From an uncultured Bacteroidales bacterium (GTDB lineage: Bacteria > Bacteroidota > Bacteroidia > Bacteroidales > Muribaculaceae), in assembly GCA_902760865.1 (NCBI GenBank), contig CACWID010000008.1, positions 33,060 to 97,059 on the forward strand: DNA of 64,000 bases, given 5' to 3'. The notes beneath the pieces were generated by a model. It was not told the DNA's origin. It saw only the letters and a list, made by a program, of their open reading frames with translations, and made no database searches. Shown here piece by piece: positions 1-35,212 of this stretch. Both the position numbers and the translations under genes were made by a program. Position 1 is the stretch's first letter; each line of letters begins with the position of its first letter.

Positions 1-27
1 GTGATCGACCTGATTCTGGGCGACTAA
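1..27 (+). CDS. C-terminal end of a dockerin-bearing protein (partial)
   Basis: The window opens inside a reading frame that encodes VIDLILGD and then stops. This is the same terminal helix that ends the dockerin repeats of the genes at 163 and 1548, so the gene upstream of the window almost certainly also carries a subtype A dockerin. Nothing more of it can be seen. It shows that the dockerin cluster extends to the left of the window. Confidence 0.7.
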   Translation: MIDLILGD

Positions 28-65
28 GCCATCCTTTCCTCCACGATAACAACGAATAAATTTAA

Positions 66-128
66 AAACTACGGATTGCGCGAGTTTCAAGGAATGATGA
101 TTCATGGGATGAGCGTAATCCGTAGTTT
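66..128 (+). terminator. Hairpin after the partial upstream gene
   Basis: A perfect 12-bp inverted repeat (AAACTACGGATT at 66-77 and AATCCGTAGTTT at 117-128) encloses a 39-nt loop and is followed by a T-rich stretch. It lies between the stop at 27 and the start at 163, so it probably terminates the upstream transcript. The large loop is atypical, and an RNA leader element for the next gene is possible. Confidence 0.5.
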
Positions 129-162
129 CTTTTCATAACCTATCTAAAAAACTTCATAAGCA

Positions 163-1548
163 ATGAAAAAATCAATACTTCTTATCGCAATGGTGGCCGT
201 TGCGGCACTCAGTGCCCTGGCCGTGACCGATGGCCAGACCTACCCCGAAGTGAACGGCATCAAGATTGTCAACCAGTGGATTTTTGACCGTGTACATAGC
301 GGCACGGCCTATACGAGCAACGACATCTGCAACCAGCGCGCCCGCACGGCGACGATGGACCAGGGCATCATCTATGTGGCCCGCAGCGAGGAGCGCGCCG
401 TGATTATCGGCACCGACACCATCTCACAGTCGGTCATCCACCGCTTCAAGGCCGCTGACGGTAGCCAGTTGCCCGACCTGCCGCTGACGCTCGACGGCGC
501 GCCCTATGGCCGCTTCCTGGGTGTTGCGAGCATCGGCAAGGACGATTTCCACCACATCTGGGTGGCACCGATGACCAGCACGGTGCAGCAGTATGTGCCC
601 GTCTATCAGGTGGATGTCGAGACCGGTGAGCTGACGCTCATCGTCGAGCTGGACAAGGGCGACGCACCGCAGCGCACCGACTACCTGGACGTGGTGGGCG
701 ACCTGACGCGTGAGCAGGCCGAGTGCAACATCATGACCGTGTCCGGCTCGACGGCCGACCCCGGTTTCCCGACGTTGTACCGCATGCATGCCGACCAGGG
801 CGGCGATTGGGAAGGTGGCTTCGACGGTGACCCCTACATGGACATCATCAACTTCTACCCCGAGACCAAGACGGGTTTCTCGCTGGCACCGGTCATCAAG
901 ATGATCGAGGGTCCCGACGAGGACTCGCGCTACAGCGGCGAGATGTTCTATATCGACTGCTTTGACACGGCACCGGTGGTGTATGACTTCTCGGGCTCGG
1001 TGATCGACTCGTTTGAGGATGTCGATCCCGCTCTGTGGCCCCAGTCCACGCCTAACGGCTGTATCGAGTTCAAGCTCGAGGACAAGGTATTCTTCGTCTA
1101 TGTCAATGCCGACATGAACGGTAACGGTCACGGTTGCCAGGCCAACATCTGCGAGCTGGGTGATGCCCAGTCACTGGCCGGCATGACCAAGTACTGGAAG
1201 ATTCCCGCCGACAGCCTCGGCAAGGTCAACGACAGCGGCCTGAGGGTTCACTGCTTCTCGGTGGAATATGGCGTTGACAGCGAGGGCTATGAAGAGGTGA
1301 CCCTGTTCACCTTCAAGGCCTATAACGGCATGGCGGTCTATAAGATCGGCCGCAACGTAGACGCTGGTCAGCCCGGTGGCGGCCTGCCCGGTGACGTGAA
1401 CGGCGACGACGAGGTGAACATCGCTGACGTGAACGCGCTCATCGACCTGATTCTCGCTGGCCGGACAACAGATCCTGCCGACGTGAACCATGACGGCGAA
1501 GTCAATATCGCCGACGTCAATGCGGTGATCGACTTGATATTGAAGTGA
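163..1548 (+). CDS. Secreted dockerin-bearing protein of unknown function
   Basis: The 461-residue product starts with a clear signal peptide (MKKSILLIAMVAVAALSALA) and ends, from about residue 410, with two Ca-binding F-hand repeats (GDVNGDDEVNIADVNALI and ADVNHDGEVNIADVNAVI), a type I dockerin pattern. The roughly 380 residues between them are rich in Gly, Asp and aromatic residues and look like repeated beta-strand segments, perhaps a propeller, but I recognise no catalytic motif. Export and docking are inferred from the two ends. The stop codon overlaps the start of the next gene (TGATG), so the two are probably translationally coupled and may act on related substrates. Confidence 0.85.
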   Translation: MKKSILLIAMVAVAALSALAVTDGQTYPEVNGIKIVNQWIFDRVHSGTAYTSNDICNQRARTATMDQGIIYVARSEERAVIIGTDTISQSVIHRFKAADGSQLPDLPLTLDGAPYGRFLGVASIGKDDFHHIWVAPMTSTVQQYVPVYQVDVETGELTLIVELDKGDAPQRTDYLDVVGDLTREQAECNIMTVSGSTADPGFPTLYRMHADQGGDWEGGFDGDPYMDIINFYPETKTGFSLAPVIKMIEGPDEDSRYSGEMFYIDCFDTAPVVYDFSGSVIDSFEDVDPALWPQSTPNGCIEFKLEDKVFFVYVNADMNGNGHGCQANICELGDAQSLAGMTKYWKIPADSLGKVNDSGLRVHCFSVEYGVDSEGYEEVTLFTFKAYNGMAVYKIGRNVDAGQPGGGLPGDVNGDDEVNIADVNALIDLILAGRTTDPADVNHDGEVNIADVNAVIDLILK

Positions 1549-3917
1549 TGAGAACGGCCCGAACGCTTTTCTGCCTCGCAGCGCTGCTGCTGACCTCTGT
1601 AACAGGCCTGTCGCGTGACCAGTGGGTCATCGGCGACAGGGCCTACGAGGTGGACACGCTCATCTTCCCGCATCTGGCAGGCCCGGGCGTGACGGCGGCG
1701 AAATATGACATCCCGGCGTTGCCGCTCAAGGTGAGCGTCGTCGAGATGGACCTGACCAATCCCTACATCGTGATGGAGACCTGCCTGGGCGCCGACAAGT
1801 CGGTGGGCAGCGAGACGCCTGTCAACATGGCGAAACGCAACACGCGGCCCGGGCACGAGGTGGTGGGCGCCGTCAACGGTGACTTCTTCATGACCTCGCC
1901 CACCAACGAGGTGGGGCTTCCGCTGAGCGGCCAGGTGCGCAACGACGAGCTTGTCCTGAGCAGCCACAACCGTGCCTGCCTGGTGATGGACACCGACAAC
2001 CGCCCCTATATCGACCGCCTGACCTTCACGGGCCGGGTGACCTGTGGCGAGACGGAGTTTGCTCTCAACCTGGTGAACCGCATGCGTTATGCCTACGAGA
2101 ACATAGCGGCTAACCAGTCCATCCTGTTCACCCGCAGCTACGGACCCGTGACCTATGACGCCTCCTCGTCGGGCAAGATGGTGCTGCTGCGCCCTGCCGG
2201 CGACCCCTTCAAGTGGAATGCCAACGGCATGGAGCAGTGTGTCGTCGAGTCGGTATTCGATGCCAAGGGCTCCACGACCATCCCCGACGGCAAGGCCATC
2301 CTGTGGCTCAAGGGCACCTATGCCAACTATGCCGAGGCCCTGCACGAGGGCGATGAACTGTCTGTCAGCTTCAGGCTCACGCTCAACAACGAGTCAGCTG
2401 ACATCAACATCCATCAGCTCATCGGCGGCAGCAACCATATCATCATGCAGAACGGCGAATTCCGTGAGGACTGGGCCGAGCGCCATCCGCGCACGGCCAT
2501 CGGCTTCAATGCCGACAGCACGCGCCTCTACTTCGTCGTCGTCGATGGCCGTCACCTGACCTCAACGGGCGTGACCCTGTGGGAGATGAAGGGCATCTTC
2601 GACGCCCTGGGCGCCGTCAATGCCGTGAATCTGGACGGCGGCGGCTCGTCGTGCATCCTGGTCAATGACGAGGTGATGAACCATCCCAGCGACGGCTCGG
2701 TGAGGGCCGTGGGCAACGGCTGCCTGTTCGTCTCGACTGCTCCCGAGGACGATGCCATCGGCATCATCAACTTCGAGCCGCGGTGCTACAACCTGTCGAT
2801 CTCGGCGACGACGGCCTTTGACGTGTGGGGGTACAACCAGTATGGCGTGCTGAAGACGCGTGACCTGCAGGGCTGCACCTTCACCTGCGACCCGTGGGTG
2901 GGTCACTTTGACGATGAGGGTAACTTCCATGCCGTTTCCACGCCTGCCGTGGGCAACCTGTATGCGAGCTATAACGGCATCACCGCCAGCCAGCCCGTTA
3001 CCATCATGGAGGCGCAGTGGCTGCTGGTGAGCGACAGCGTGGTCATCGACAGTTTTCACCCTTATGCCATCAACATCAACGGCGTCAGCGGCTATGGTCT
3101 GGACAAGGTGGACCCTTCGGTAGTGGCGTGGACCTCGGCCGATGAGAGTGTCTGCGCCGTTGACAATCAAGGTATTATCACCGCTGTGGCCGACGGACAT
3201 ACGTTTGTCGGCACCAGCCATCCCCTGCTGGCCGACTCGCTGCTGGTGAGTGTCGAGAATCCCAAACGCCGCATCGCTACCGTCGAGAACGCCCCCATCG
3301 ACCCTGCCACCTGGGACATCGCCCAGAGCGGCGGTAAGAACCGCGTGGTGACCGCACTTGACAACGGCCTGCAGATCGACTTCACCGGCTCCTCGTCGCG
3401 TAACCCTTACATCAAAATCAGCAAGGCCGTGAGGATGTGGGGCCTGCCTGACACCCTGCGCGTGCGCATCGTGCCCGGAAACCTGCAGCTCAAGTCCTTG
3501 AAGATGCTGTTGGAGAGCGGTTACGGCGAGCGCATCACCGTGGAGTATCCCATCAACGCGGCTGCTGAAGGCGAAATCACCATCGACGCTCCGGTGACCG
3601 ACATCTGCAACGCCCAGGACTTGGGCAACTTCCCGCTGCATCTGGTGTACTACTACATCACGTATAATTCGCCGACAACCGATGAACCCTACAGCCTGAA
3701 GATTCCCGGCATGGAACTCATCTATGCCAGCATGCCGCCCGATGAGCAGCCTGCCGTGGGCGACGTGAACCTTGACGGCGAGGTGAACATCGCCGATGTC
3801 AACGCCGTCATCAACCTGATACTCGCGGGCATTTACGCCACGCCCGGGGACGTGAACGGTGACGGCGAGGTCAATATCGCCGACATCAATGCCCTCATCG
3901 ACCTGATACTTTCTTAG
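1548..3917 (+). CDS. Phosphodiester glycosidase (NAGPA-type) with C-terminal dockerin
   Basis: The 789-residue product has a signal peptide and, at roughly residues 60-400, a domain of the NAGPA/phosphodiester glycosidase family. Visible family hallmarks are AVNGDFF (about 108-114), HPRTAIGF, and NLDGGGSS with a following valine-rich strand near 360. Known members cleave GlcNAc-1-P phosphodiesters; here a secreted enzyme acting on a phosphodiester-linked glycan is inferred. An Ig-like (Big_2-type) region and a jelly-roll-like region follow. From about 735 come two dockerin repeats (GDVNLDGEVNIADVNAVI, GDVNGDGEVNIADINALI). A GTG at 1545 is in frame, but the ATG at 1548, overlapping the upstream TGA, is the likelier start. 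Confidence 0.85.
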   Translation: MRTARTLFCLAALLLTSVTGLSRDQWVIGDRAYEVDTLIFPHLAGPGVTAAKYDIPALPLKVSVVEMDLTNPYIVMETCLGADKSVGSETPVNMAKRNTRPGHEVVGAVNGDFFMTSPTNEVGLPLSGQVRNDELVLSSHNRACLVMDTDNRPYIDRLTFTGRVTCGETEFALNLVNRMRYAYENIAANQSILFTRSYGPVTYDASSSGKMVLLRPAGDPFKWNANGMEQCVVESVFDAKGSTTIPDGKAILWLKGTYANYAEALHEGDELSVSFRLTLNNESADINIHQLIGGSNHIIMQNGEFREDWAERHPRTAIGFNADSTRLYFVVVDGRHLTSTGVTLWEMKGIFDALGAVNAVNLDGGGSSCILVNDEVMNHPSDGSVRAVGNGCLFVSTAPEDDAIGIINFEPRCYNLSISATTAFDVWGYNQYGVLKTRDLQGCTFTCDPWVGHFDDEGNFHAVSTPAVGNLYASYNGITASQPVTIMEAQWLLVSDSVVIDSFHPYAININGVSGYGLDKVDPSVVAWTSADESVCAVDNQGIITAVADGHTFVGTSHPLLADSLLVSVENPKRRIATVENAPIDPATWDIAQSGGKNRVVTALDNGLQIDFTGSSSRNPYIKISKAVRMWGLPDTLRVRIVPGNLQLKSLKMLLESGYGERITVEYPINAAAEGEITIDAPVTDICNAQDLGNFPLHLVYYYITYNSPTTDEPYSLKIPGMELIYASMPPDEQPAVGDVNLDGEVNIADVNAVINLILAGIYATPGDVNGDGEVNIADINALIDLILS

Positions 3918-3962
3918 AAGTTAGGAGTGAGGAGTTAGGAGTGAGGAGTTAGAAGTGTGGAG
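3914..3962. repeat. 7-bp tandem repeat array, 7 units
   Basis: Seven imperfect heptamers (TTAGAAG, TTAGGAG, TGAGGAG, TTAGGAG, TGAGGAG, TTAGAAG, TGTGGAG) run in register. The stop codon of the phosphodiester glycosidase gene lies in the first unit. The array resembles the heptanucleotide STRR repeats known from cyanobacteria. Confidence 0.85.
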
Positions 3963-3968
3963 TGCTTT

Positions 3969-4004: not shown

Positions 4005-4021
4005 ATGATAACTTTCAGAAC

Positions 4022-4774: not shown

Positions 4775-4798
4775 CAGCTTGCATCAGGGGTGATCTGA

Positions 4799-5107
4799 TT
4801 GCTGTTGCCCGTTGTTCTCCACCGACCTGCCAAGCGGCTTGACCCTGTCGCCCAGCCTGCTACTTTCCGCATTGTTATGGCAGACGGCGGCTCTGGAGCA
4901 ACCTACGTTGATGATATATCCCTGTACTATATCGATGTGGTGGGTGATGTGAACGGGGACAGGGAAATCAATATCGCCGATATCAATGCGGTTATCGACC
5001 TGATCCTGAATGATGACCTGATACCTGTCGCCGACGTGAACGGAGACGGCGAGGTCAATATCGCTGATGTCAACGCCCTGATTGCTTTAATACTCAGCAA
5101 AAGATGA
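4799..5107 (+). pseudogene. 3' remnant of a C10-peptidase/dockerin gene
   Basis: From about 4856 the frame encodes FRIVMADGGSGATYVDDISL followed by two dockerin repeats. This aligns closely with the last 110 residues of the C10 peptidases at 5177 (FRIAMTGGGSAAAYVDD) and 9950 (FRISMIGGGTGATYVDD). There is no signal peptide, propeptide or peptidase domain, and the preceding bases resemble the paralogues only out of frame. It is therefore best read as the surviving tail of a deleted paralogue and not as a functional 102-residue gene. It fills the gap between cutC and the next gene. Confidence 0.75.
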
Positions 5108-5176
5108 GTTTTTCAATCTTTTGTTATACCTTTGTGAAAATTTTTGGTATAGATTTTTAATATTTCTTGAAAAATA

Positions 5177-7768
5177 ATGAAGAAGCGATTTCTTTTCATC
5201 CTTGCCATCACGATGGCGGCAGTGTGCAGCCTGCAGGCTGCACAGGTCAGCGAGTCTGCAGCCCGTCAGGTCGCCGACCAGTTCTTTACAGCCAGGGCAG
5301 CACGCCTAGCGGCCCGTCCTGGACAGTCGTCGCTGCGTCTTGCCTACACCGCCGAGCAGGAGCGGTTTTATGTCTTTGACCGCAGCAGCGGCAGCGGATT
5401 TGTTGTCGTTGCCGGTGACGACCGGCTGCCTCAGGTGCTGGGTTACAGCGACACCGGTGTTTTCAACACGGGCAACATCCCGCCCTCGATGCGGGCCTGG
5501 ATGGAAGAGATGAGCCGCGAGATTGCCTACCTGCAGTCACATAGCGGCGTCGTCGCGCATCATCCCGTCAAGCCGGCGAATGTCGTCGAGCCGTTGCTGA
5601 CGACCATATGGAATCAAGGCTGGCCTTACAACTTGCTGTGCCCCACCTATGGAGGGGAAGAGGCCATCCTTGCCGTGACCGGCTGTATAGCCACGGCCAC
5701 GGCCCAGATTATGAACTACCATCAGTGGCCCTTGCAAGGCACCGGCAGCCACAGCTATTACTGCAATGTGAATGATACTGACCCCGTGGAACTGAGTGCT
5801 GACTTCAGCCAGTCGTTCTATGATTGGGACAATATGCTCGACTACTATGACCAGAGCAGCAGTGCGGAGTCGTGTCTTGCCGTCGCCAAGCTGATGAGCG
5901 ATGTGGGCATCTCGGTCGATATGGGTTATGGTGCCTCCAGTGGCGCTCAAGAGACAGCCGTTGTGAAGGCACTGACCCGTTACTTCGGCTACAGCAACAG
6001 GCACTACCTGCTGGAGCGTGACCTGTTCGGCGCCGACGAGTGGGACCAGTTACTTATCGATGAGCTCAACGCCGGCCGTCCCATGCTCTACTGCGGTTAC
6101 ACTTATACCCAAGGTTCGATGAGCGGTCATGCCTATGTGCTTGACGGCGTGGACGACCGGGGGTATTTCCATATCAATTGGGGCTGGGGAGGCGACAATG
6201 ACGGCTACTTCATGGTCTCGCTGCTCGCTCCGGGTTCCGGCATGAATTTCAAGTATGGCCAGGACTGCCTCTTCGGAGTCGTTCCGGCCCCTGATGCCGA
6301 TAAAGTGGCCGGCGTGCTCTACGTGCGCGGCCTGCTGCATCCTGAGATGAAGAGTGTTACGCGCGGCGGCAAGGTGACTCTGAAGTTCTCTGACATCTAT
6401 GCCCATGGCAACCTGGTGGATACCGCCGGCGTTGAGTACTCGGGCTACTGGCCTGCTTCTTATGACCTGATACCCATGGAGCTGCGCGTCATTGACCGTG
6501 ATGGCGTGGTGCGGCAGTCCAGCCGATTCAACTATAAGGTTTACATCGAGGGTTGGGGCACGACACCACCTAAGATTGACTTCGTTCCCGACATCACCCT
6601 CGGCGAAGGAGACTATACGGTCAAGATCGCCTATTCCGAGAACAAAGACGGCAATTATGGCAGCTGGGTGCGTGATGATTATGGCAATGACGTGTATTGC
6701 AACATGCACGTCACCAATGACATGGTATACGTGTCGGACTGCTTCTTGTCCGACAGGTATGACCTGCAATCCATGGAACCCGACCAGAACATCTTTGTCG
6801 GCGAGCCCTTCGAGGCGGAAGTGACGTTGTCCAACATGAGGCGATATGGTCCTTCGGGCGGCCAACCCGAGGCAGACATCGCCGGCAACATCCGCTTGGC
6901 CCTGCAGAAGAACGGCAAGGTGGTGGCCACCGGTGAACCGATTACCATATCGTCGATACCTAGAGACTCGACGGCGACCTATCGCCTGCAGATGACGGCT
7001 CCTGAGCAGTGGGGACGTTATGAACTGATGGTGGTAGACGACTGCGGCAGGACGTTTACGCCCCAGATGGGCTGGTATGACCTGGAAGAGCAAAGCGGCG
7101 CCATCAACATCATTGTCGTGCCCAAGAGCGATGCCCTGGTCGAGGACTTCGAGTCGATGCATGCCAACAGCAGCACCAGCGAGAAGAATGTGCAGGGCGC
7201 TTTCACCAAGTGGAGTTTCAACAAGAGTGGCGTGCGCGCTCCGGGTGAGGGCAAGTGCCATGGTACCAATTCTGTGATGATGAAGAAGCCGAGCACTTTC
7301 TACAGCGTCGAACCCATCAATCATCGCATCTTCATGGCCGAGGCCACTTTCTTTAACAACTCCTCGACTGACGCGAAGTTCACTCTGGAATACTCGGTGG
7401 ATGGTGCCGCCACGTGGAAGAAGGCCATGACCATCGAAGACGAGCTTGCCGCTGATGTCCCTGCAACGAGCGTTGTGCAGGCCATCTGGCAGCTCAACCT
7501 GAGGGCCACTGAGAATGCCCTGTTCCGCATTGCCATGACCGGCGGCGGCTCGGCAGCGGCCTATGTTGACGACTTCATCTTGCGCTATAATGATGAGTCA
7601 ATCGCTGGCGATGTCAACGTTGACGGCGAGGTGAACATCGGCGACGTGAACGCAGTCATCGACCTGATCTTCAGCGAGTCGGCTTCTGCCGTCGGCGACG
7701 TGAACGGTGACGGCGAAATCAACATTGCCGACGTGAACGCCATCATCGACATCATCATGGGCGAGTAA
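5177..7768 (+). CDS. C10 family cysteine peptidase with dockerin (subtype A)
   Basis: The 863-residue product has a signal peptide (1-22), a Spi/PrtI-type inhibitory propeptide (about 24-125, ending in GFVVVAGDDRLPQVLGY and flanking helices), and a streptopain-type peptidase domain. The catalytic Cys is at 170 (VTGCIATATAQIM) and the His at 318 (SGHAYVLDG), followed by the conserved HINWGWGG motif. After residue 370 come beta-sandwich regions, including a domain with WSFNKSGVRAPGEGK. Two dockerin repeats close the protein (GDVNVDGEVNIGDVNAVI, GDVNGDGEINIADVNAII). It is a close paralogue of the gene at 9950. The active enzyme is presumably released by loss of the propeptide and acts outside the cell. 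Confidence 0.93.
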   Translation: MKKRFLFILAITMAAVCSLQAAQVSESAARQVADQFFTARAARLAARPGQSSLRLAYTAEQERFYVFDRSSGSGFVVVAGDDRLPQVLGYSDTGVFNTGNIPPSMRAWMEEMSREIAYLQSHSGVVAHHPVKPANVVEPLLTTIWNQGWPYNLLCPTYGGEEAILAVTGCIATATAQIMNYHQWPLQGTGSHSYYCNVNDTDPVELSADFSQSFYDWDNMLDYYDQSSSAESCLAVAKLMSDVGISVDMGYGASSGAQETAVVKALTRYFGYSNRHYLLERDLFGADEWDQLLIDELNAGRPMLYCGYTYTQGSMSGHAYVLDGVDDRGYFHINWGWGGDNDGYFMVSLLAPGSGMNFKYGQDCLFGVVPAPDADKVAGVLYVRGLLHPEMKSVTRGGKVTLKFSDIYAHGNLVDTAGVEYSGYWPASYDLIPMELRVIDRDGVVRQSSRFNYKVYIEGWGTTPPKIDFVPDITLGEGDYTVKIAYSENKDGNYGSWVRDDYGNDVYCNMHVTNDMVYVSDCFLSDRYDLQSMEPDQNIFVGEPFEAEVTLSNMRRYGPSGGQPEADIAGNIRLALQKNGKVVATGEPITISSIPRDSTATYRLQMTAPEQWGRYELMVVDDCGRTFTPQMGWYDLEEQSGAINIIVVPKSDALVEDFESMHANSSTSEKNVQGAFTKWSFNKSGVRAPGEGKCHGTNSVMMKKPSTFYSVEPINHRIFMAEATFFNNSSTDAKFTLEYSVDGAATWKKAMTIEDELAADVPATSVVQAIWQLNLRATENALFRIAMTGGGSAAAYVDDFILRYNDESIAGDVNVDGEVNIGDVNAVIDLIFSESASAVGDVNGDGEINIADVNAIIDIIMGE

Positions 7769-8153: not shown

Positions 8154-9494
8154 TCAAGACTGACGGAGCAGGTTGTTGATAAGCGTTGTCACGTCTGTGA
8201 TGTTGACGGCTCCGTCACCGTCCACATCGGCATTGGTCCTATTGATGGGTGTCGTATTTCCGCTTAACAGATAGTTAATGAGTTCGGTCACGTCCTGGAT
8301 GTTGACCTTGCCATCGTCGTTGACATCCCCAGGAGTGCCCACCAGACTGGCGTCGGGCATGAAATTGATGGCCATGTCTTGATAGGTGTTGAACTGCAGG
8401 CCCCGCACGTCAAGCACGGCGATGTCGAAGTAGCCATCGTAGTTGCCATACCATCCCCAGTTGACGTGGACCATTCCCTGCTCGTCGTATCCATCGATGA
8501 TGAATGAGTGGCCGGCAGCCATCAGGCCCACCGCCGGGTCGAAGTTCACATAGACGCCCTGATAGTACAAGGGGCGCCGATGGCTTAATTCGTTATAGAC
8601 CATGTCCATCCACTCGGGTTCGCTGTAGTCGCTGCGCACGACGATGGTAGCGTCCTTGTTGTAACCGAAGTAGTTCTTTGCGCCCTCCAGTGCCGCCTCG
8701 TTACTTGACCCTGACTCGTTGGTGGCATAGTTCATCCAGCTGACCAGTCCACAGACATAGGACAACAGGGCGGCAGCGCGTCCCTGGGCCTCGGTGTACT
8801 GGCCCTCGGGGTAGGAGTCCAGCATATTGTCCCAGTCAAAGGTCGCGTCAAAGCTGGCGGTGGCATCCTTGTTGCCGATCAGGAAGTTGGCCGTGCCCGC
8901 AGCATGGTCGGGAAAACGGTAGTAGCTGACGATTTGGGCCAGGGCGGTGGCCACGCAGCCCACACAGCAATGGACTACATCGGGCGTGTAGTCGTCGCAG
9001 ATTTCGCCATAGCCGGTCGGGCACCAATAGCTATAAGGGGCATCCTGGCCCCATTGCGACGTGATCAGGGCATCCACCTTGGCGGGATACTTGGCAGGGT
9101 CGGGCAGGGTGGTCGAGAAGGTCATGTCCCTACTGGTGAGGATGCGTGACACCTGCTCGATACTGTTACAGAACCACTCGAATCCCGGATTGGGCTGCGC
9201 TGTGGCCGGCGATGCACCGCTGCCCACTGCCAGCACTGCCGGCAGGCGGTCATCGGCCGCGATCATGGCAAAGTCGCCTTGACGGGTCTGATAGAGGGTG
9301 TAGGCACTGGTCGTCCTGGACTCGATCAGGGGCGAGGAGGCATTGAAACGATGGCCGCCTGTATTCATTGTCATCAAGGCTTGCCTGGCCGACTGCAGCA
9401 TGGCTTGCTTGTCGCGCGGTGCGCTCCATGCGGGCGCGCTCAGCAGGAGCATAGCCATCAACAGCATGATGTGTCGTGATAATTTATTAGACAT
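8154..9494 (-). CDS. C10 family cysteine peptidase with dockerin (compact form)
   Basis: At 446 residues this is the smallest C10 peptidase here and the only one on the minus strand. It has a signal peptide, a propeptide (about 25-135), the catalytic Cys at 180 (CCVGCVATALAQI) and His at 329 (AAGHSFIIDGYD), and HVNWGWYG. The dockerin follows the peptidase domain directly (GDVNDDGKVNIQDVTELI and ADVDGDGAVNITDVTTLI), with no Ig or Fn3 modules. Its repeats are subtype B (DVT), like those of the array at 18-35 kb and unlike its plus-strand neighbours. A cluster of Cys residues (CC at 176-177) next to the active site is unusual. It is convergent with the gene at 5177 and divergent from the gene at 9950. 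Confidence 0.93.
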   Translation of the reverse strand: MSNKLSRHIMLLMAMLLLSAPAWSAPRDKQAMLQSARQALMTMNTGGHRFNASSPLIESRTTSAYTLYQTRQGDFAMIAADDRLPAVLAVGSGASPATAQPNPGFEWFCNSIEQVSRILTSRDMTFSTTLPDPAKYPAKVDALITSQWGQDAPYSYWCPTGYGEICDDYTPDVVHCCVGCVATALAQIVSYYRFPDHAAGTANFLIGNKDATASFDATFDWDNMLDSYPEGQYTEAQGRAAALLSYVCGLVSWMNYATNESGSSNEAALEGAKNYFGYNKDATIVVRSDYSEPEWMDMVYNELSHRRPLYYQGVYVNFDPAVGLMAAGHSFIIDGYDEQGMVHVNWGWYGNYDGYFDIAVLDVRGLQFNTYQDMAINFMPDASLVGTPGDVNDDGKVNIQDVTELINYLLSGNTTPINRTNADVDGDGAVNITDVTTLINNLLRQS

Positions 9495-25842: not shown

Positions 25843-28614
25843 ATGAAGAAATTCCTATTGTTATTGACAGCGGCCATTACGGCCATGTCATTGTCGTCGG
25901 CTCCCGTTGATCAAGCGACGGCACAACGTAAGGCAAAGAGCTTTCTGACACAACACATGTATGCCGGGAAAACCATGTCGGCCTCGGCCCTCAACCCTGT
26001 TCTTGTCAAGACCGAGATGGGAAGTGCCAAAATTAATCAGCCTGTCTATTACATTTACAACACATCCACGACTTTTCTCGTTATTGCCGGTGATGACCGT
26101 GCCGAGGAAATCCTCATGATCGGCGATCGTCCCCTGAAGGACGTCAACAACCTGCCGCCGGGCATGCTGGACATGCTCCGTCAGTACAAGGAGGAGATTT
26201 CATTCTTGCAAGAGAATCCTAATTTGAAGGTGGCTCCCATTGTCAGCCCTGAGAATACACCCATGCTGCGTGCAACGAATGTCGGCCCGCTGCTGACCGC
26301 CAACTGGGACCAGCAAGAACCCTATTACAACCAGTGCGTGTTCAAGTACAACAACCGGAACTATCAGTGCTTGACGGGCTGCCCTGCCACCTCGGCCTCG
26401 ATGGTGCTGTACTTCTGGAAGTACCCGACTACTCCGACCGGAAATCTTGATTCCTATCAAGGATACCTCGACCTCTCAAGCGGTTATACCTCTAATGAGG
26501 TCAGTTTTACCTATCCTGCCCTGTCGTCCACCACATTTGACTGGGCCAACATGAGGGATGATTATACCGGCGAATACACCACTGCTGAGGGTAATGCCGT
26601 GGCAACGCTGATGCGCTATGTGGGCCAGGCCGAGCAGATGATATATGGTCCCAACGGCAGCGGCATCAGTGTCGATGACGCTCAGCATGTGGCCGACATG
26701 TTCATCCGTTTCGGTTATGATGCCACCACAACCCGCCTTGTGAAGCAGTATGAGAAAATGGACAATTCTGGCAACGTGTCGGGCCGCATCTATACCGATG
26801 CACAGTGGGCTGCCATGATTCAGGAGGAGATGGCTGCCGGCCGCCCCATCGTGTTCATGGCAGTGGACTTGAGTAATGGTGGTCATGCCTTCAACGTCGA
26901 TGGCTACCGCAGCAGCGACAACAAGTACCACATCAACTTCGGCTGGAGTGGCGAGGGAAATGATTGGTGCGCACTGAATGCTTTCGGATATACCACATCC
27001 TCGGGCTGGTGGAGCACATCTTATAATTTCAATACTTATCAGCAGATGATTATCGGCATCCAGCCGCCCTCAACCGCTACTCCCGAACTGACTGTCAATC
27101 CCACTTCGCTGAGCTTTACCGGCCAGACAGGTGAGACCTATACCAAGACCTTTACCGTGACGGGTACTGACCTGCGCGGTGATGTGAACGTTTCGTCCAA
27201 CAGCGGTGTCTTTGCCGTATCGCCCACTACGATCACTGCCGCCCAGGCGGCAGCCGGCGCCACGGTGACTGTCACCTACATCCCGACGACAGCGGGCACC
27301 CAGAACGGCACGATTACCATCTCGAGCAGTGCTGCCGAGGACAAAACCGTCACCGTAACGGGTACCGCAACCAGCGTTCCCAAGCTCGTTGCCGATCCCT
27401 CGACGCTGAACTTCAACACCGTGATGGGCACCCCCGTCACCCAGTCGTTCATGCTCACTGGCCTGAACCTGACGGGCGATGTTGACCTGTCGGTCAGCGG
27501 CGCTGAATTCACGATCAACAAGACCCACGTGGACAAGGCCAACGCCAGTGCGGGCGCCGTGGTCACCGTTACCTATTTCCCGACTGTCGCCGGCACTCAC
27601 ACCGGTACCGTGACCATCACCAGCGCCGACTGTGCTGACGTGACTGTTGCCCTCAACGGTGTCGCCGACATCGTGAAGGCCGTTCCCGTGATGCTGCCTG
27701 CCAACGAGGAATACATCAACCTGACCAAGTTCCGTGCCGACTGGACCGATGCTACCCCCGATGAGAATGTGGCCAGCTACACCCTCGAGGTGAACGGCAA
27801 GCCCGAGGTGGTTGAATTGCTCGGCTCCATCGACGGTACTTCTTACACCAACCAGAGCTATCAGGCAGTGACGCTCTCTGCTCCCTGGTCGGGCAACAAC
27901 GTCTATGGCGGCTATGGAGCCATCTACTTCCGCAACGCTACCCACCAGTCGGCAACCACCGATGGCTACATCAAGTTCACCATCCCCGCAGGCTACCAGA
28001 ACCAGACCTTCACCGTGAAGATTACCACGGCCAGCGGTCAGTATGGCAGCGGCAGGTTTGTAGTGGGCTCGAACCAGACGGCAGCCGTTGAGTACAACAT
28101 GAGTGCGACCGAGACTCACAGCTGGCTCGTGACCGGCAACAGCGGTGAGGTGATTACCGTCACTTCGCCCGAGAATCAGTACTCACCCGACATCGCCCTG
28201 ATCGAGGTTTATGCCGGTGACGCTACTGCTGCCACCCTCAACGCTACCAGGGACGTCGATCCCGACTATCGCCTGATTGAGGGTATCACCGAGAAGTTCT
28301 TCACCGTTGAGGACCTGACTGCCGAGGGCACCTTCCTCTACAAGGTGAAGGCTATCTACATCGACGGCACCGAGAGCGAGTGGAGCAACATCGAGGAGGT
28401 TACGCTGTTTGAGAATGGCCACGGCTATGAAGTGGGCGACGTGAACCACGACGGCAAGCTGAACATCTCTGACGTGACTGCTCTGACCAACTATCTGTTG
28501 ACCAATGGCGAGGGCGACGGATGTGCCATCTGCGGTGACATGACAGGCGACGGCAATGTGACCATCGCCGACGTGACCGCGCTGATCAACTACCTGTTGA
28601 CGCACTCAAATTAA
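25843..28614 (+). CDS. C10 family peptidase with two Ig-like domains and dockerin
   Basis: The 923-residue product has a signal peptide (1-20), a propeptide, Cys180 (LTGCPATSASMVL) and His348 (NGGHAFNVDGYR). The next motif reads HINFGWSG, with Phe where most C10 enzymes have Trp. Two Ig-like (ASH-type) repeats (about 405-505 and 505-605) are followed by an Fn3-like domain split by a jelly-roll insert and two dockerin repeats (GDVNHDGKLNISDVTALT, GDMTGDGNVTIADVTALI). The Cys pair in CAICGDM is shared only with the next gene. The last third and the downstream terminator are nearly identical in DNA to those of the gene at 29117. Confidence 0.92.
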   Translation: MKKFLLLLTAAITAMSLSSAPVDQATAQRKAKSFLTQHMYAGKTMSASALNPVLVKTEMGSAKINQPVYYIYNTSTTFLVIAGDDRAEEILMIGDRPLKDVNNLPPGMLDMLRQYKEEISFLQENPNLKVAPIVSPENTPMLRATNVGPLLTANWDQQEPYYNQCVFKYNNRNYQCLTGCPATSASMVLYFWKYPTTPTGNLDSYQGYLDLSSGYTSNEVSFTYPALSSTTFDWANMRDDYTGEYTTAEGNAVATLMRYVGQAEQMIYGPNGSGISVDDAQHVADMFIRFGYDATTTRLVKQYEKMDNSGNVSGRIYTDAQWAAMIQEEMAAGRPIVFMAVDLSNGGHAFNVDGYRSSDNKYHINFGWSGEGNDWCALNAFGYTTSSGWWSTSYNFNTYQQMIIGIQPPSTATPELTVNPTSLSFTGQTGETYTKTFTVTGTDLRGDVNVSSNSGVFAVSPTTITAAQAAAGATVTVTYIPTTAGTQNGTITISSSAAEDKTVTVTGTATSVPKLVADPSTLNFNTVMGTPVTQSFMLTGLNLTGDVDLSVSGAEFTINKTHVDKANASAGAVVTVTYFPTVAGTHTGTVTITSADCADVTVALNGVADIVKAVPVMLPANEEYINLTKFRADWTDATPDENVASYTLEVNGKPEVVELLGSIDGTSYTNQSYQAVTLSAPWSGNNVYGGYGAIYFRNATHQSATTDGYIKFTIPAGYQNQTFTVKITTASGQYGSGRFVVGSNQTAAVEYNMSATETHSWLVTGNSGEVITVTSPENQYSPDIALIEVYAGDATAATLNATRDVDPDYRLIEGITEKFFTVEDLTAEGTFLYKVKAIYIDGTESEWSNIEEVTLFENGHGYEVGDVNHDGKLNISDVTALTNYLLTNGEGDGCAICGDMTGDGNVTIADVTALINYLLTHSN

Positions 28615-29116: not shown

Positions 29117-32100
29117 ATGAAGAAAATTCTATTGCTTGTTGTGGCCGTTCTTATGGCCCTTCAAATGTCGGCTGGCGACGTCACTGCCTCGCAGGCACAG
29201 GCCGCAGCCAATGCGTTTCTTAGAAAACAGGTAGCCGCAGGTCATCTTAAAGCCTCGGCAGTATCTAACCTGCAACTTGTCAAGTCTGAAGCCTCGGTGG
29301 CTAAACCCACGGCCGTGGACTACTACATCTTCAATTCGGCTAAATCCTATGTGGTAGTTTCCGGTGATGACTTGGCACCCCAAATCCTGATGTACGGTGA
29401 GGAGGGTTCTCTCGACTTGAACAACATCCCTCCCGGCATGCAGTGGTTACTCAACAAGTACAAATATCAGATCGACGGCCTCAAGGCTGGTACCATGGTG
29501 CCGGTGAAGCTCCCCAAGTTTGCCACCACACCCGTTGCACCGCTGGTAAACGCCAACTGGGACCAGAGCGCACCTTATAACAACCAGTGCCCCTCCAGTG
29601 GCGGCAGTCACGCTGTCACGGGTTGCCCGGCCACTTCGTTGGCCATGTGCTACTACAAGTGGAAATGGCCCGAGACCTATCCCGCAGTAGCAGCACTCTC
29701 GGGTACTGGCGGCCTCAGTGCCGCTGCTCTGCCTGAACGTGCAGCCGACTGGGCTAACATCATCGACGAGTACACTGGTCCGACCAACTATACTTCCACA
29801 AGTGAACAGAAGGACGCTGTGGCATGGCTGATGCGCTATGCAGGCCAGTCAATTCCCGATTACCAGTACAGCACCAGTGCCAGCGGTGCCAACGACCCCG
29901 AGATCTTCCAGGGCTGTAAAAACATGGGTTATACTGATGCACAGTACCTCCTGCTCACCGAGCTCGAGAGTTCGGGTTGGACCTACACCAATGGCCCGCA
30001 GCAGTATACCGACGCCGAGTGGAACGAATTTATGTTGAACGAGCTGCACAACGGCCGTCCCATCGAGTATCTGGCTTATGATATCCAGAATGGCTATAAC
30101 GTTTCGGGTCACGCCTTCAATGTGTTTGGCTGCAATGCCAGTGGCCAGTACTACGTGAACTGGGGCTGGAGCGGCGACAGCAACGGCTATTGCACGCTGC
30201 ACAACTTCACCACCGCTACTGGTGCAACGGGTCAGGCTGGCGCCTACGTCTTCAAGTATGGCGAGGCCATGATTATCGGTATCGAGCCTCCCGCAGGAGC
30301 CCTCAACACTCCCAGGATTAAGGTTAACCCCACCTCGCTCATAATGAACGCTATTGTGGGCAATCCTGTCACCGCCACCTTCACCGTTACCGGTTACAAC
30401 CTCACCGACAGGGTGAATCTGGCCCTCAGCGGTAGTAACGCTTTCTCGCTGAGCACCACCAGCATCAGCGCTGCCCAGGCCGCTAACGAAGTGACTGTCA
30501 CTGTGACCTATAACCCCACAGTGTCAGGCACCGATGAGGCCACCGTTACGTTGACCAGCGCCGAGGCCGAGGCCGTGACGCTCAAGATTAACGGTACTGC
30601 CGACCTGGAGACCTATAAACCCGTGATGCTCGATGCCCGCAATATCACATCCACCTCGTTTACCGCTGCCTGGACCGACGAGACCCCTGCTGCCAACGTG
30701 GAGAGCTACACCCTCTATGTGAGCGACAAGCCGTTCCGTCCTCCCTATGCTCTGCTTGACAGCGTCGACTGGAGTAGTAACAACAACGTACCTTCTGGCT
30801 GGACGCAAAGCGGTCTGAATTATTGGAGTTCCAATAGCGCAAGCTACCTGAGCGACGGCGGCTATGTGCAGACCAAGACCTACGATCTCACGGGTTATGA
30901 CAAGGTGACCGTGATGGTTTACTCTGAGCCTTATCAAGGCAACAACTCGATGACTGTGGCAACCAGTGCCCAGAACAAGACCGTTAGCATGTCTGGCAGC
31001 TCGTTCAACTGGTACACCTTCGTTCTGAATTGCGCCAGCAGCGACTATGTTAAGATTACTACCAGCGGCATGCCCGACATGAGGTATGTGAAGGTTTATG
31101 CCGGCGATCTCACCAATACGATGCAGCTCAAGGCCAACGAAACCGGCGACGAGACCTATCGCGTCATTACCGGTATCACCAGCAAGAGTTACACCGTGAC
31201 CGGCCTCACCGCGGGCGGCACCTTCAACTTCTATGTTGTGGCCAACTACATCAATGGCGGTATCGGCGATAGCAACATTGAACAAGTGACCCTCTTGGAG
31301 AATAGCAATCCCACAATCACCGTGAGTCCCTCTGCCCTGAACATGACGACCACAGTCGGCGAGCCCACCACGGCCACCATCAACGTGGGCGGTGCTAATC
31401 TCACTGGCGATGTGACTCTGGCGCTGACCGATGCCGACGGTGTTTACAGCATCACGCCGACAACCATCAGCGCGGCAGAGGCCATGAACGGCAAGGACGT
31501 TACCGTTACCTATAGCCCCACGGCCTTCGGCGGTAACACTGCCACGATAACGCTGAGTAGTGCCGGTGCCGAGGATGTGACCGTTACCCTGAACGGTCAG
31601 GCCAACCTCGTGAAGTATGCTCCCGTCATGCTGCCTGCCGACGAGGCATATATCAACCTGACCAAGTTCCGTGCCGACTGGACCGATGCCACTCCCGATG
31701 CCAATGTAGCAAGCTACACTCTTGAGGTGAACGGCAAGCCTGCCGTGCCTGAGCCCGAGCCTGAACTGATTGCTTCGCTCTCTGGTACGAGCTACTCGGG
31801 TAGCGGCTATTATGTTGTCAACTTGACTGCTCCCTGGAGTGGTACCAATGTGCGTGGCCACAATAATGAAATCATCTACTTCAGGAACAATTATGATAAT
31901 GATGGTATCTATGGTAACATCTCCTACACTATTCCTGCAGGTTATGAGAATGCTACCTTCACAGTGAAGATTACCTCAGGCACAAGTACTGAGGAGGCTG
32001 TCGGTAACTTGACTGTTTCCACGCCGCAGACCGCTGGTGTGACCCACTACTTCACGCCTTCACAGACCTATACTTGGGTGGTTACGGCAAGCAGCGGTGA

Positions 32101-32566
32101 GAAGATTGACATCACCACTCCCGATGCTCAGTATTCACCCGACATCGCCCTGATCGAGGTTTATGCTGGTGACGCTACTGCTGCCACCCTCAACGCTACC
32201 AAGGACGTCGATCCCGACTATCGCCTGATTGAGGGTATCACCGAGAAGTTCTTCACCGTTGAGGACCTGACTGCCGAGGGCACCTTCCTCTACAAGGTAA
32301 AGGCTATCTACATTGACGGCACCGAGAGCGAGTGGAGCAACGAGGAGGAAGTTACCTTGTTCGCGAATGGCCACGGCTATGTAGTGGGCGACGTGAACCA
32401 CGACGGTAAGCTGAACATCTCTGACGTGACTGCTCTGATCAACTACCTGTTGACCAATGGCGAGGGCGACGGTTGTGCCATCTGCGGTGACATGACTGGC
32501 GACGGCAGTGTGACCATCGCCGACGTAACCACGCTGATCAACTACCTGTTGTCGCTCTCAGATTGA
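29117..32566 (+). CDS. C10 family peptidase, largest form, duplicated Ig/Fn3 modules
   Basis: The frame is open from 29030, but the signal peptide (MKKILLLVVAVLMALQMSAG) starts at 29117, giving 1149 residues. Cys170 (VTGCPATSLAMCY) and His332 (SGHAFNVFGCN) are present, and YVNWGWSG is intact. The Asp that follows the His in the paralogues (HAFNVDG) is Phe here. Next come Ig-like, split Fn3, a second Ig-like, a second split Fn3, and two dockerin repeats (GDVNHDGKLNISDVTALI, GDMTGDGSVTIADVTTLI). The module pair appears to have arisen by internal duplication or by acquiring the tail of the gene at 25843. Confidence 0.92.
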   Translation: MKKILLLVVAVLMALQMSAGDVTASQAQAAANAFLRKQVAAGHLKASAVSNLQLVKSEASVAKPTAVDYYIFNSAKSYVVVSGDDLAPQILMYGEEGSLDLNNIPPGMQWLLNKYKYQIDGLKAGTMVPVKLPKFATTPVAPLVNANWDQSAPYNNQCPSSGGSHAVTGCPATSLAMCYYKWKWPETYPAVAALSGTGGLSAAALPERAADWANIIDEYTGPTNYTSTSEQKDAVAWLMRYAGQSIPDYQYSTSASGANDPEIFQGCKNMGYTDAQYLLLTELESSGWTYTNGPQQYTDAEWNEFMLNELHNGRPIEYLAYDIQNGYNVSGHAFNVFGCNASGQYYVNWGWSGDSNGYCTLHNFTTATGATGQAGAYVFKYGEAMIIGIEPPAGALNTPRIKVNPTSLIMNAIVGNPVTATFTVTGYNLTDRVNLALSGSNAFSLSTTSISAAQAANEVTVTVTYNPTVSGTDEATVTLTSAEAEAVTLKINGTADLETYKPVMLDARNITSTSFTAAWTDETPAANVESYTLYVSDKPFRPPYALLDSVDWSSNNNVPSGWTQSGLNYWSSNSASYLSDGGYVQTKTYDLTGYDKVTVMVYSEPYQGNNSMTVATSAQNKTVSMSGSSFNWYTFVLNCASSDYVKITTSGMPDMRYVKVYAGDLTNTMQLKANETGDETYRVITGITSKSYTVTGLTAGGTFNFYVVANYINGGIGDSNIEQVTLLENSNPTITVSPSALNMTTTVGEPTTATINVGGANLTGDVTLALTDADGVYSITPTTISAAEAMNGKDVTVTYSPTAFGGNTATITLSSAGAEDVTVTLNGQANLVKYAPVMLPADEAYINLTKFRADWTDATPDANVASYTLEVNGKPAVPEPEPELIASLSGTSYSGSGYYVVNLTAPWSGTNVRGHNNEIIYFRNNYDNDGIYGNISYTIPAGYENATFTVKITSGTSTEEAVGNLTVSTPQTAGVTHYFTPSQTYTWVVTASSGEKIDITTPDAQYSPDIALIEVYAGDATAATLNATKDVDPDYRLIEGITEKFFTVEDLTAEGTFLYKVKAIYIDGTESEWSNEEEVTLFANGHGYVVGDVNHDGKLNISDVTALINYLLTNGEGDGCAICGDMTGDGSVTIADVTTLINYLLSLSD

Positions 32567-32613
32567 GGCGCCTGCAGTTACGGTTTGTAGCCGCTGACAA
32601 CTCTTGAAATAAT

Positions 32614-32652
32614 CAGGTTCCCGAGGGAAGGCTCCTTCGGGGACTTGATTTT
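32614..32652 (+). terminator. Rho-independent terminator
   Basis: GTTCCCGAGGGAAGG pairs with CTCCTTCGGGGAC and is followed by T-rich sequence. It is almost the same hairpin as at 28664. Confidence 0.8.
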
Positions 32653-32674
32653 TATTAGTTTTTTGCCCGAAAAA

Positions 32675-32706
32675 GTTGTTTTATTATCGTTTTTGACTTA
32701 ATTTTG
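32675..32706 (+). promoter_or_regulatory. Promoter of the C10 gene at 32819
   Basis: GTTG (32675-32678) and TAATTTTG (32699-32706), spacer 20 bp, followed by a leader of about 110 nt. Confidence 0.5.
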
Positions 32707-32818
32707 CAACGGTTTTTGGCGTTGTTGCTTCTTGCAGCGACGCTTGTTATCAACATTAACGACTACTGAAGCTGAGAAGTTAACATCATAATTATCTAAT
32801 AATCAATCATTTATTTGT

Positions 32819-35212
32819 ATGAGAAGAGTTTTATTGTTTGCCGCTGTTCTGCTTGCGGCGATTCAACTGTCGGCAGGGCCCGTCGACTTGCGTGCGGCCC
32901 AACACAAGGCACAAGCCTTTGTTCAGCAGAAAAACTATGGCGGTCGCTTGAATGCGCCCCTCCGTGGTGAGTTGCGTCTGGCTCACGCCGAGATGAACTC
33001 CAAGATGTTTGACCGTGCTGTCTATTACATCTTCAATAGCGACAATGGCTATGTGATTGTCTCGGGTGATGACCGTGCCGAGGAGATTCTGGGCTATGGT
33101 GATGCTCCGCTTGACTTCAACACCATCCCTTGCAACATGCGCGCATGGCTTGACACCTACAAGGAGCAGATTGAATACCTGCAGGCACATCCTGACCTGA
33201 AGGTGGATCGTTCCTCGTTCAATGCCCCGTCCAGGATACCGAGCGTGGAACCGCTGCTGACGGCCCTGTGGGACCAGGAAGCACCCTATTGGAACATGTG
33301 CAAGATCAATAACCAGCAGTGTCTGACGGGTTGCCCTGCAACCTCGGCCGCAATGGTGATGCACTACTGGAAGTATCCCGACTTTGAGACCGATCAGGTT
33401 CCGGCCTACAAATGCCATCTCTATACCGGTTACTATTCGTCCACCTATGTCAATGTGGATGCTCTGCCTCCCGTGACATTTGACTGGGACAATATGCTGG
33501 ACCGTTACTCTGGCGGTTACAATAGTACTCAGGCCAATGCCGTGGCAACGCTGATGCGTTATGTCGGCCAGGCCGAACGCATGGAGTATGGTACGAGCGC
33601 TGCCGGCGGTAGCGGTATCTCGACCGACAGTGTGTCGCTCATCGTGGACATGTACAAGTTCTTCGGCTATGACGAGGAGACAGTCCGCCTGGTGCGCAAG
33701 ACCGGTTCCAATGCCAGTAACGAGGTTTGGGGAGGCCTCATCCAGGAAGAATTGTCCGAGGGTCGTCCCATCGTGTTCTGTGCTGTCTCGGGCGGCTTCT
33801 TCGGTGGTGGCCATGCCTTCAATGTGGACGGCTATGACGCCACTAGCAAAAAATATCACATCAACTTCGGCTGGAGCGGAACGTCCAACGACTACTATGC
33901 GCTCAACGCCTTTGACGGCTACAATCAGGACCAGCAGATGGTTATCGGTATCCAGCCGCCGATGAAGGTTCCGCGCCTCAAGGCCGATGCTACCAGCCTG
34001 TCGATGGAGTGCTTCAAGAACCAGACTTCGACGGTTGCCTTCACCCTCAAGGGTAGCAACCTGGAGGGTGACGTGACGCTGACCCTCAACGACGACAATG
34101 ACGTGTTCAGCATCAGCGAGACTGCCGTTACTCCCGATGAGGCCGGCAAGGTCGACAAGACCATCGCTGTCACCTATGCACCCAAGGCTGAGGGCACCTA
34201 TACCGCAACCATCACCTGCAGCGCTCCTGGTGTCAATGATATCGTTATCTCACTGGTGGGAACTTCGGCCTATGAGCTGTACCGTCCCGTCATGGAACCC
34301 CTGGACGAGCAGAGCGTGACCGCCACCTCGTTCCGTGCCGAGTGGACTGACAACACGCCCGCCGAGAATGTGGTCAGCTACACCCTCGAGGTGAAGGAGA
34401 AACCCGACGTATGCCTGCTGGCTGAGGGCGACTGGAGCGACGTGCCCAGCGAGAGCGTCAACCATGCCAGCGATGCCACCAACTACCTGCCTGAGGGCTG
34501 GACCTTCACGGGTACCAACTTCTATCTGGACGGCGGCTTCATCTCGGCCAGCCGCAACAGTGTCATCCAACCCGGTTGCGACCTGACTGGCTACAGCATG
34601 GTGAGCGTCATCCTCCGTGCCAAGAACTACATGAATGGCGGCGCCACCACGCTGACCATCGAGACCGATGAGGCATCTAAGACCATCGTTCTGGCCAAGG
34701 AAATCGACACTTATCTGGTTGTGCTGCCCGTCGGCGACCGTGGCTATGTCAAGTTGGTTACCGGTAACTATCCCGAGATTCAGACCGTCAAGGTCTTCGG
34801 CGGCGAGGTGACCGATCCCGAGCCCTTCATGCTCAGGGGTGCCAGCGAGACCGGCGACGAGCTGTTCCGTCTCATCGAGGGCATCACCCCCGACAAGTTC
34901 TACACCGTCAACGGTCTGAAGCCTGCAACTCCCTATCTGTATCGTGTGAAGGCCATCTACGTGAACGGCACCGAGAGCCTCTGGAGCAATACCAGAGAGG
35001 TTCTCCTCGCCGAGGGCGGTGATGTAGTGCTTGGCGACATTGACGGCGACGGCAATGTGTCCATCGTAGATGTCACTGAACTGATTAAGGCCCTGCTCTC
35101 GGATGGTGCAGATGCTCTGGACATCCGGGTTGCCGACTGCACGGGCGACGGCGTGGTATCCATTTCCGACGTGACCGAACTCATCAACTACCTGTTGAGC
35201 GGCAAGTGGTAA
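32819..35212 (+). CDS. C10 family peptidase with dockerin (last of the array)
   Basis: The 797-residue product has a signal peptide (1-20), a propeptide, Cys172 (LTGCPATSAAMVM) and His332 (GGGHAFNVDGYD), then HINFGWSG with Phe in place of the usual first Trp. An Ig-like domain (about 385-480), a split Fn3-like domain with an inserted beta-sandwich, and two dockerin repeats (GDIDGDGNVSIVDVTELI, ADCTGDGVVSISDVTELI) follow. The repeats are the most divergent of the array. It ends the array and is followed by a perfect terminator hairpin. Confidence 0.92.
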   Translation: MRRVLLFAAVLLAAIQLSAGPVDLRAAQHKAQAFVQQKNYGGRLNAPLRGELRLAHAEMNSKMFDRAVYYIFNSDNGYVIVSGDDRAEEILGYGDAPLDFNTIPCNMRAWLDTYKEQIEYLQAHPDLKVDRSSFNAPSRIPSVEPLLTALWDQEAPYWNMCKINNQQCLTGCPATSAAMVMHYWKYPDFETDQVPAYKCHLYTGYYSSTYVNVDALPPVTFDWDNMLDRYSGGYNSTQANAVATLMRYVGQAERMEYGTSAAGGSGISTDSVSLIVDMYKFFGYDEETVRLVRKTGSNASNEVWGGLIQEELSEGRPIVFCAVSGGFFGGGHAFNVDGYDATSKKYHINFGWSGTSNDYYALNAFDGYNQDQQMVIGIQPPMKVPRLKADATSLSMECFKNQTSTVAFTLKGSNLEGDVTLTLNDDNDVFSISETAVTPDEAGKVDKTIAVTYAPKAEGTYTATITCSAPGVNDIVISLVGTSAYELYRPVMEPLDEQSVTATSFRAEWTDNTPAENVVSYTLEVKEKPDVCLLAEGDWSDVPSESVNHASDATNYLPEGWTFTGTNFYLDGGFISASRNSVIQPGCDLTGYSMVSVILRAKNYMNGGATTLTIETDEASKTIVLAKEIDTYLVVLPVGDRGYVKLVTGNYPEIQTVKVFGGEVTDPEPFMLRGASETGDELFRLIEGITPDKFYTVNGLKPATPYLYRVKAIYVNGTESLWSNTREVLLAEGGDVVLGDIDGDGNVSIVDVTELIKALLSDGADALDIRVADCTGDGVVSISDVTELINYLLSGKW

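Follow-up and report, generated by a model that had tools for sequence, protein, structure and literature searches.

Cellulosomes of clostridia and ruminococci combine enzymes that carry dockerins with multi-cohesin scaffoldins, cohesin-dockerin adaptors, and anchoring proteins, and their dockerins fall into subtypes. In Gram-positive bacteria, SLH or sortase signals anchor these complexes. The system described here came from follow-up of a 64,000-nucleotide stretch of DNA (the window) from an uncultured Bacteroidales bacterium of the family Muribaculaceae. The window lies on contig C8 of a 3.35 Mb draft genome (G000; other G-numbers are other genomes, C-numbers are contigs, and L-numbers are fetched stretches of DNA), and its initial annotation described a large group of secreted C10 peptidases that end in paired, dockerin-like F-hand repeats. 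Sequence comparison identifies these repeats as type I dockerins, a calcium-binding docking module, and indicates that the finding is larger than first noted: a real cohesin-dockerin system with protease-rich cargo in a genus of Bacteroidales. All of the cellulosome features listed above, as they occur in Acetivibrio thermocellus and Ruminococcus flavefaciens, have predicted counterparts here. The differences are that the host is a Gram-negative Bacteroidales bacterium, that C10, M6, and S8 proteases and leucine-rich repeat (LRR) proteins lead the cargo, that some anchors have type-IX-like tails instead of SLH or sortase signals, and that a scan of ten proteins with a cohesin, alone or beside a dockerin, lists no carbohydrate-binding module.

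Parts of this picture have precedents. A goat-kid gut study counts 63 to 107 dockerins per genome of Sodaliphilus, a member of the Muribaculaceae, and proposes cellulose degradation (PMC10872696); the main text of that paper has 0 occurrences of the word "cohesin". Sodaliphilus and the genus studied here are probably the same clade. As in our genome, cohesins occur in a rumen Bacteroidales genome of a cow study, where two are found in one protein of the Prevotellaceae genome RUG606 (PMC5830445); this is a single remark, and the available passages do not describe anchors or cargo. A camel-rumen study mentions dockerins, and cohesins, in some Bacteroidetes (PMC6071333), and both the goat and the camel papers take the dockerins of rumen Bacteroidetes as pointing to the degradation of cellulose or lignocellulose. 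The Ruminococcus albus type of system (PMC6118326) shares with ours a large dockerin set and few cohesins, whereas multi-cohesin proteins and adaptors are present here. The mucinolysome of Limousia (PMC12997984) is another cellulosome-like complex from animal guts with a substrate that is not cellulose, although both bacterium and substrate are different. The Sodaliphilus dockerin expansion and the two-cohesin rumen Prevotellaceae protein have therefore been published already. No paper on cohesin-dockerin pairing, anchors, or protease cargo was found in searches of an open-licence library, which leaves subscription papers mostly outside.

The initial annotation saw no cohesin and proposed a search of the complete genome. 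Its observation holds for the window, where neither the Pfam model on contig C8 (E up to 10) nor a profile of the genome's own cohesins on the window frames (E up to 1, among 1805 frames from the fetched stretches and the window) gives a match. It does not hold for the genome, which encodes a scaffoldin, anchors, adaptors, an LRR-dockerin-cohesin protein, and a small single-cohesin protein, all outside the window. The Pfam and own-profile matches rule out a cohesin-free genome. In the genome search, PF00963 exceeds its cut-off in six stretches within three genes. The own profile was built from nine cohesins of this genome and has 13 matches at E up to 0.01, with 11 among those listed; the nine match by construction, and the C30 and C1 cohesins are not among them. 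The cohesin genes are the following.

Contig C7, L001:10471-12500, minus strand: four-cohesin scaffoldin frame with a C-terminal subtype B dockerin (Pfam and own profile)
Contig C13: anchor-like gene with a cohesin, an internal dockerin of a third residue pattern, a cohesin, and a tail, followed by an adaptor gene
Contig C17: anchor-like gene with a cohesin, an internal dockerin of a third residue pattern, a cohesin, and a tail, followed by an adaptor gene
Contigs C13 and C17, directly after each anchor: adaptor, a 220-amino-acid gene with one cohesin and a subtype B dockerin
Contig C30: gene with LRR, dockerin, cohesin (own profile, not Pfam), and tail
Contig C1, L006:16075-16629: frame of 184 amino acids with a single cohesin (E 6.9e-11) and no dockerin motif, near three dockerin genes

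When whole proteins are scanned with PF00963, the C7 scaffoldin and the C13 anchor are above the cut-off, the C13 adaptor (20.1) is below it, and the C17 adaptor is not listed. The anchor-adaptor gene pair also occurs in relatives, where some of the second genes have several cohesins in a row. Together with the dockerin enzymes, the C7 frame provides the combination with a scaffoldin of several cohesins that marks a cellulosome. By eye, a signal-peptide-like start lies just upstream of this frame, in another frame. An assembly error is possible at the C7 locus because its repeats are near-identical.

Structure prediction agrees with the cohesin assignment. The adaptor of a relative (L124:6941-7594), modelled with AlphaFold2 from 14 sequences, has a mean pLDDT of 85.8. 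In a Foldseek search of the PDB (best E 2.6e-8), 44 of the 50 titles listed name a cohesin, and several of these structures were determined together with a dockerin. The other six are four pieces of Clostridium thermocellum cellulosome scaffoldins, one glycoside hydrolase interaction module, and one collagen-binding domain. This adaptor is thus predicted to have the cohesin jelly-roll fold. The likeness came from fold comparison only, and the cohesin profile has no match among PDB chains by sequence at E 0.01. For the anchor of a relative, the model is less confident (pLDDT 71.1). The top match of this model is a two-cohesin structure (a cohesin dyad), but the match is local (TM-score to the target 0.30), and the further matches include LRR proteins, integrins, and other beta-sandwich proteins.

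Dockerins are far more numerous. PF00404, the type I dockerin model, has 154 matches in the genome at E <= 1 (150 of 301 candidates scored). The stretches fetched around such matches, rather than the whole genome, were used to draw up a list of 152 dockerin genes, 46 of subtype A and 106 of subtype B, which takes in one remnant as well as some frames truncated where a stretch or contig stops. These stretches contain 161 motif-bearing frames; nine were set aside before the subtypes were counted, four judged to be chance and five with another residue at position 14, and two of these five are anchors. In the window, the dockerin genes described by the initial annotation (nine intact C10 peptidases, a phosphodiester glycosidase, a protein of unknown function, a remnant, and a partial gene) are all open frames with C-terminal paired F-hands.

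1-27, plus strand: 3' end of a partial dockerin gene, subtype A; the end of L005:11690-13087, by eye a paralogue of the 163-1548 gene
163-1548, plus strand: secreted protein of unknown function, dockerin A at 1387-1539
1545-3917, plus strand: phosphodiester glycosidase (NAGPA, PF09992), dockerin A at 3759-3908
4877-5107, plus strand: remnant, a 76-amino-acid frame with both F-hands kept, dockerin A pair at 4943-5092
5177-7768, plus strand: C10 peptidase with I69 propeptide, dockerin A at 7604-7750
8154-9494, minus strand: C10 peptidase with I69 propeptide, dockerin B at 8166-8333
9950-12526, plus strand: C10 peptidase with I69 propeptide, dockerin A at about 12365-12514
18440-20875, plus strand: C10 peptidase with I69 propeptide, dockerin B at 20705-20860
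21140-23245, plus strand: C10 peptidase with I69 propeptide and fn3, dockerin B at 23072-23230
23281-25638, plus strand: C10 peptidase with I69 propeptide, dockerin B at 25471-25629
25843-28614, plus strand: C10 peptidase with I69 propeptide, dockerin B at 28435-28602
29117-32566, plus strand: C10 peptidase, dockerin B at 32387-32551; the open reading frame list starts it at TTG 29030, but ATG 29117 gives a signal-like N-terminus
32819-35212, plus strand: C10 peptidase with I69 propeptide, dockerin B at 35030-35197

PF00404 is above its curated cut-off in all ten window proteins scanned, and eight of the ten match PF01640 and the I69 propeptide. The ninth C10 peptidase (29117-32566) was outside that scan, and genome searches place PF01640 at C8:62617-63249 and PF00404 at C8:65446-65610 in it. 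The Cys nucleophile motif and the N/W motif are present in all nine C10 proteins, and a His pattern matches eight; the exception, the 5177 gene, has GHAYVLDG by eye. Domain matches and catalytic residues both assign these proteins to the C10 peptidases. The dockerin-bearing proteins of the window stop at most 25 residues past the start of the last F-hand, in agreement with the earlier statement that they lack a type IX tail, and 121 of the 152 listed dockerin genes encode no more than 12 residues after their final F-hand. By a simple hydrophobicity rule, 138 of 143 dockerin proteins (from 143 of the 152 genes) have a signal-like N-terminus; among 20 control frames taken elsewhere in the window, 7 do. 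A lipobox-like motif was seen once in the dockerin proteins. In three proteins (L014:4035-6989, L015:5353-6150, and L008:18036-18821), the repeats are near the N-terminus and not in their usual C-terminal place; by eye, the first of these ends in a domain like that of sulfatase-modifying factors.

Elsewhere in the window, by eye, a small protein frame at 17764-18204 (plus strand) has a TonB-like C-terminal part. The frames at 35304-41732, downstream of the dockerin genes, look like a NusG-type regulator, a flippase, two dehydrogenases, and a thiamine-pyrophosphate enzyme, and they resemble the start of a surface polysaccharide locus.

The initial annotation described the passengers as proteases and raised the idea of a protease scaffold; the former holds for many of the dockerin proteins and the latter was a good guess. 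Passengers were scanned in 149 of the 152 dockerin proteins (44 A, and 53 and 52 B), and the counts refer to the first 25 of the 31, 29, and 37 families in the respective scans. C10 is the largest enzyme class listed (24 of 149). The others include at least eight M6, five S8, ten CotH, at least six amylase, four endonuclease I, five FGE-like, at least two GH53, and at least three GHL10 proteins, and LRR_5 repeats are found on 26. By coordinates, 24 of the 27 C10 matches in the whole genome fall inside listed dockerin genes, with exceptions on C3 (205001), C4 (56182), and C6. Proteases and LRR proteins rather than plant-cell-wall hydrolases lead this cargo. No cellulose-binding module is listed on the six own-genome cohesin proteins scanned, and the system falls outside the definition of a cellulosome for this reason.

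Two dockerin subtypes had been proposed from the window, and both are real. In first repeats, subtype A has Glu at position 7 and Asn at position 14 (each 39/39) and Asp at position 18 (31/39), and subtype B has Thr at position 14 (90/93), Leu at position 16 (92/93), and Asn at position 18 (77/93). Positions 11 and 18 lie within the surface by which clostridial dockerins are recognized. A tree of the 130 of 152 dockerins with two usable F-hands, built with the defining column 14 removed, separates the A from the B rows by one change. If the five rows of other types are counted, then A requires 2 changes and B requires 5 (shuffled means 33.0 and 36.6). The subtypes also separate in a tree to which 79 rows from relatives were added (5 changes across 186 A and B rows, versus 54.6 when shuffled), partly by construction because many of these rows were chosen by the two patterns. 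Few forks are supported because the alignment has just 42 columns.

That the subtypes track position is correct within the window, where the plus-strand genes at 1-12.5 kb are A and the minus-strand 8154 gene and the six at 18-35 kb are B, but genome-wide it does not extend beyond local clustering. Of 64 pairs of close neighbors, 49 are alike in subtype, against 36.8 on average after shuffling, and 3 of 5000 shuffles reach that value. The subtype-by-position pattern along the window therefore follows from the genome-wide split between A and B together with this clustering. Among 31 sampled genomes of the genus, 19 contain the A pattern (DVNA.ID) and 11 contain the B pattern (DVTALIN), and five (G000, G150, G154, G162, and G170) have at least 16 matches to each. 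A count of zero is no proof of absence because these patterns miss dialects: both subtype B passenger rows of G163 have LID, and three of four G122 rows have DVSALIN. Three of the four dockerins fetched from G122 (L181-L184) share identical repeats (DVSALINMILG and DVSALINIILG) across different genes, as though gene conversion or a recent spread had kept them alike.

The dockerins of the scaffoldin and adaptors are on average closer to B than to A of their own genome in all six cases compared (this genome's scaffoldin and both adaptors, and one adaptor each in G163, G150, and G170), with few rows for the relatives and the subtype column counted in; for the G170 adaptor, the difference is narrow (27.0 versus 24.4 of 44). 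Three other proposals about the subtypes were rejected. Subtype does not follow passenger class, since C10, M6, S8, CotH, nuclease, amylase, and GH53 passengers are found with both. The presence of A is not tied to adaptor genes, since by eye G151, G152, G172, and G146 have adaptor-sized cohesin frames and at most one A-pattern match. Nor do B dockerins vary by genome while A dockerins do not; both cluster by genome to a similar degree (genome labels change 15 times among the A rows, versus 20.4 on average when shuffled, and 13 times among the B rows, versus 16.8).

We suppose that A and B dockerins may have different partners. There is a somewhat less than even chance that they are instead gene amplification products of two ancestors that share one partner. 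The local clustering of the subtypes and the overlap of their passenger families fit this alternative. However, A and B differ at many positions, including 7, 11, and 18, and A-like and B-like forms recur together in relatives, in rows that were picked by the two patterns.

Each of the 31 sampled genomes of the genus has both domains. Cohesin matches range from 1 to 15, the one in G159 reaching only 1.3e-6, and dockerin matches range from 16 to 144, where no more than 145 candidates were scored in any genome. Across 149 genomes of the family, and counting either cohesin model, 36 have both domains, 11 have cohesin only, 8 have dockerin only, and 94 have neither; without the genus, these numbers are 26, 11, 8, and 94. 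At least 31 dockerins are found in all 10 genus genomes of the family sample and in G001 from another genus, and the others have 0 to 7. Co-occurrence is not independent evidence for docking in trans because, outside of the genus, both domains can share one frame. The family counts are also uncorrected for kinship, and they therefore speak for a common history of the two domains more than for trans docking. A search of named genomes with five adaptor cohesins found 29 loci, all in Bacteroidales metagenome-assembled genomes; nine are labelled Muribaculaceae, and six titles mention a ruminant host.

The anchors may connect the system to type IX secretion. SprA, which is the type IX pore and which alone among the components of that system was searched for, is present at full length on C3 (2615.7 bits). 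A second, partial SprA-like stretch with one in-frame stop is found at G000:C4:27504-28871. In a comparison of 35 anchor tails, two kinds were chosen by eye (11 and 8 tails). A profile of the first kind, which includes the C13 anchor, matches a profile of known tails at 97.3%, compared with 0.4% for a control profile; the known tails are six from this genome found by TIGR04183, five of them above its cut-off. One of ten proteins scanned, an LRR-dockerin-cohesin protein of a relative, passes the TIGR04183 cut-off. Type-IX-like tails are thus supported by their sequences for some anchors, among them one of the three in this genome.

We consider it likely that these genes encode a cellulosome-like docking system in a Gram-negative bacterium, with mostly non-cellulolytic cargo and complexes held by the bacterium's own cohesins. 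The window proteases and some 140 other dockerin proteins would leave by Sec and bind, in trans, to cohesins of the same cell. Anchors composed of an LRR or other N-terminal part, a cohesin, an internal dockerin, a cohesin, and a tail like a sorting signal would be exported by the type IX system and hold the resulting complexes on the surface. Branching of the complexes would come from adaptors and scaffoldins, in which a C-terminal dockerin is combined with one or several cohesins. The bacterium would then probably build surface enzyme complexes.

Several observations weigh against this docking system. The four-cohesin C7 frame has no signal peptide of its own in this assembly. When single proteins are scanned with the Pfam cohesin model, the C17 anchor (22.2) falls below the cut-off and the C30 protein is absent from the matches listed. 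The second tail profile (8 tails), which includes the C17 and C30 proteins and hence two of the genome's three anchors, matches the known tails at 9.9%; TIGR04183 lists none of the three anchors at E up to 1, and 12 anchors of relatives have no TIGR04183 or PF18962 match at 0.01. No cohesin was found by either model in G001 (85% complete), which has 31 dockerins. The proposed system gives no route by which tail-less cargo would cross the outer membrane. Finally, cohesins are few relative to dockerins (13 versus about 150), and outside of the genus a dockerin and a cohesin can share one frame (for example, G053 C3 and G042 C46).

These last two points also favor an alternative in which each cohesin pairs with the adjacent internal dockerin of the same protein and the exported dockerins bind a glycan, another surface protein, or nothing. 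The two domains adjoin within the anchors, and other genera of the family, which have few dockerins, carry some of them in cohesin frames. This alternative is nevertheless unlikely, given that adaptors and scaffoldins exist in which one to several cohesins are combined with a passenger-like C-terminal dockerin, and that the dockerin expansion of the genus is accompanied by cohesin genes in every one of its 31 genomes. The initial annotation had also considered a surface-retention signal, and that the terminal dockerin is a new sorting or retention signal that replaces the type IX tail and needs no cohesin is highly improbable: the short ends past the last F-hand and the single lipobox-like motif are in its favor, but N-terminal and internal copies rule out a mere C-terminal signal (one internal dockerin, in L009:10844-13204, precedes a stretch with a weak type IX tail match under the cut-off), and dockerin sequences vary by genome and subtype, unlike a signal for one conserved machine.

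A more speculative extension of the docking system, which we regard as improbable in its entirety, is that type-IX-tailed cohesin carriers take folded dockerin proteins from the periplasm through the type IX pore. Some 120 tail-less proteins could reach the surface in this way, the A and B dockerins could address two tiers of carriers, and the arrangement could have arisen in the genus from a dockerin-cohesin module that is kept by other genera in single type-IX-like proteins.

Cohesin-dockerin assembly is known chiefly from Gram-positive bacteria that degrade fibre, and the docking system would extend it to a gut genus that is Gram-negative and whose cargo is rich in proteases. That cargo points to the breakdown of protein, nucleic acid, and starch at least as much as of cellulose or lignocellulose. 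The genus may serve as a test case for how Gram-negative bacteria could display many enzymes without a sorting signal on each.

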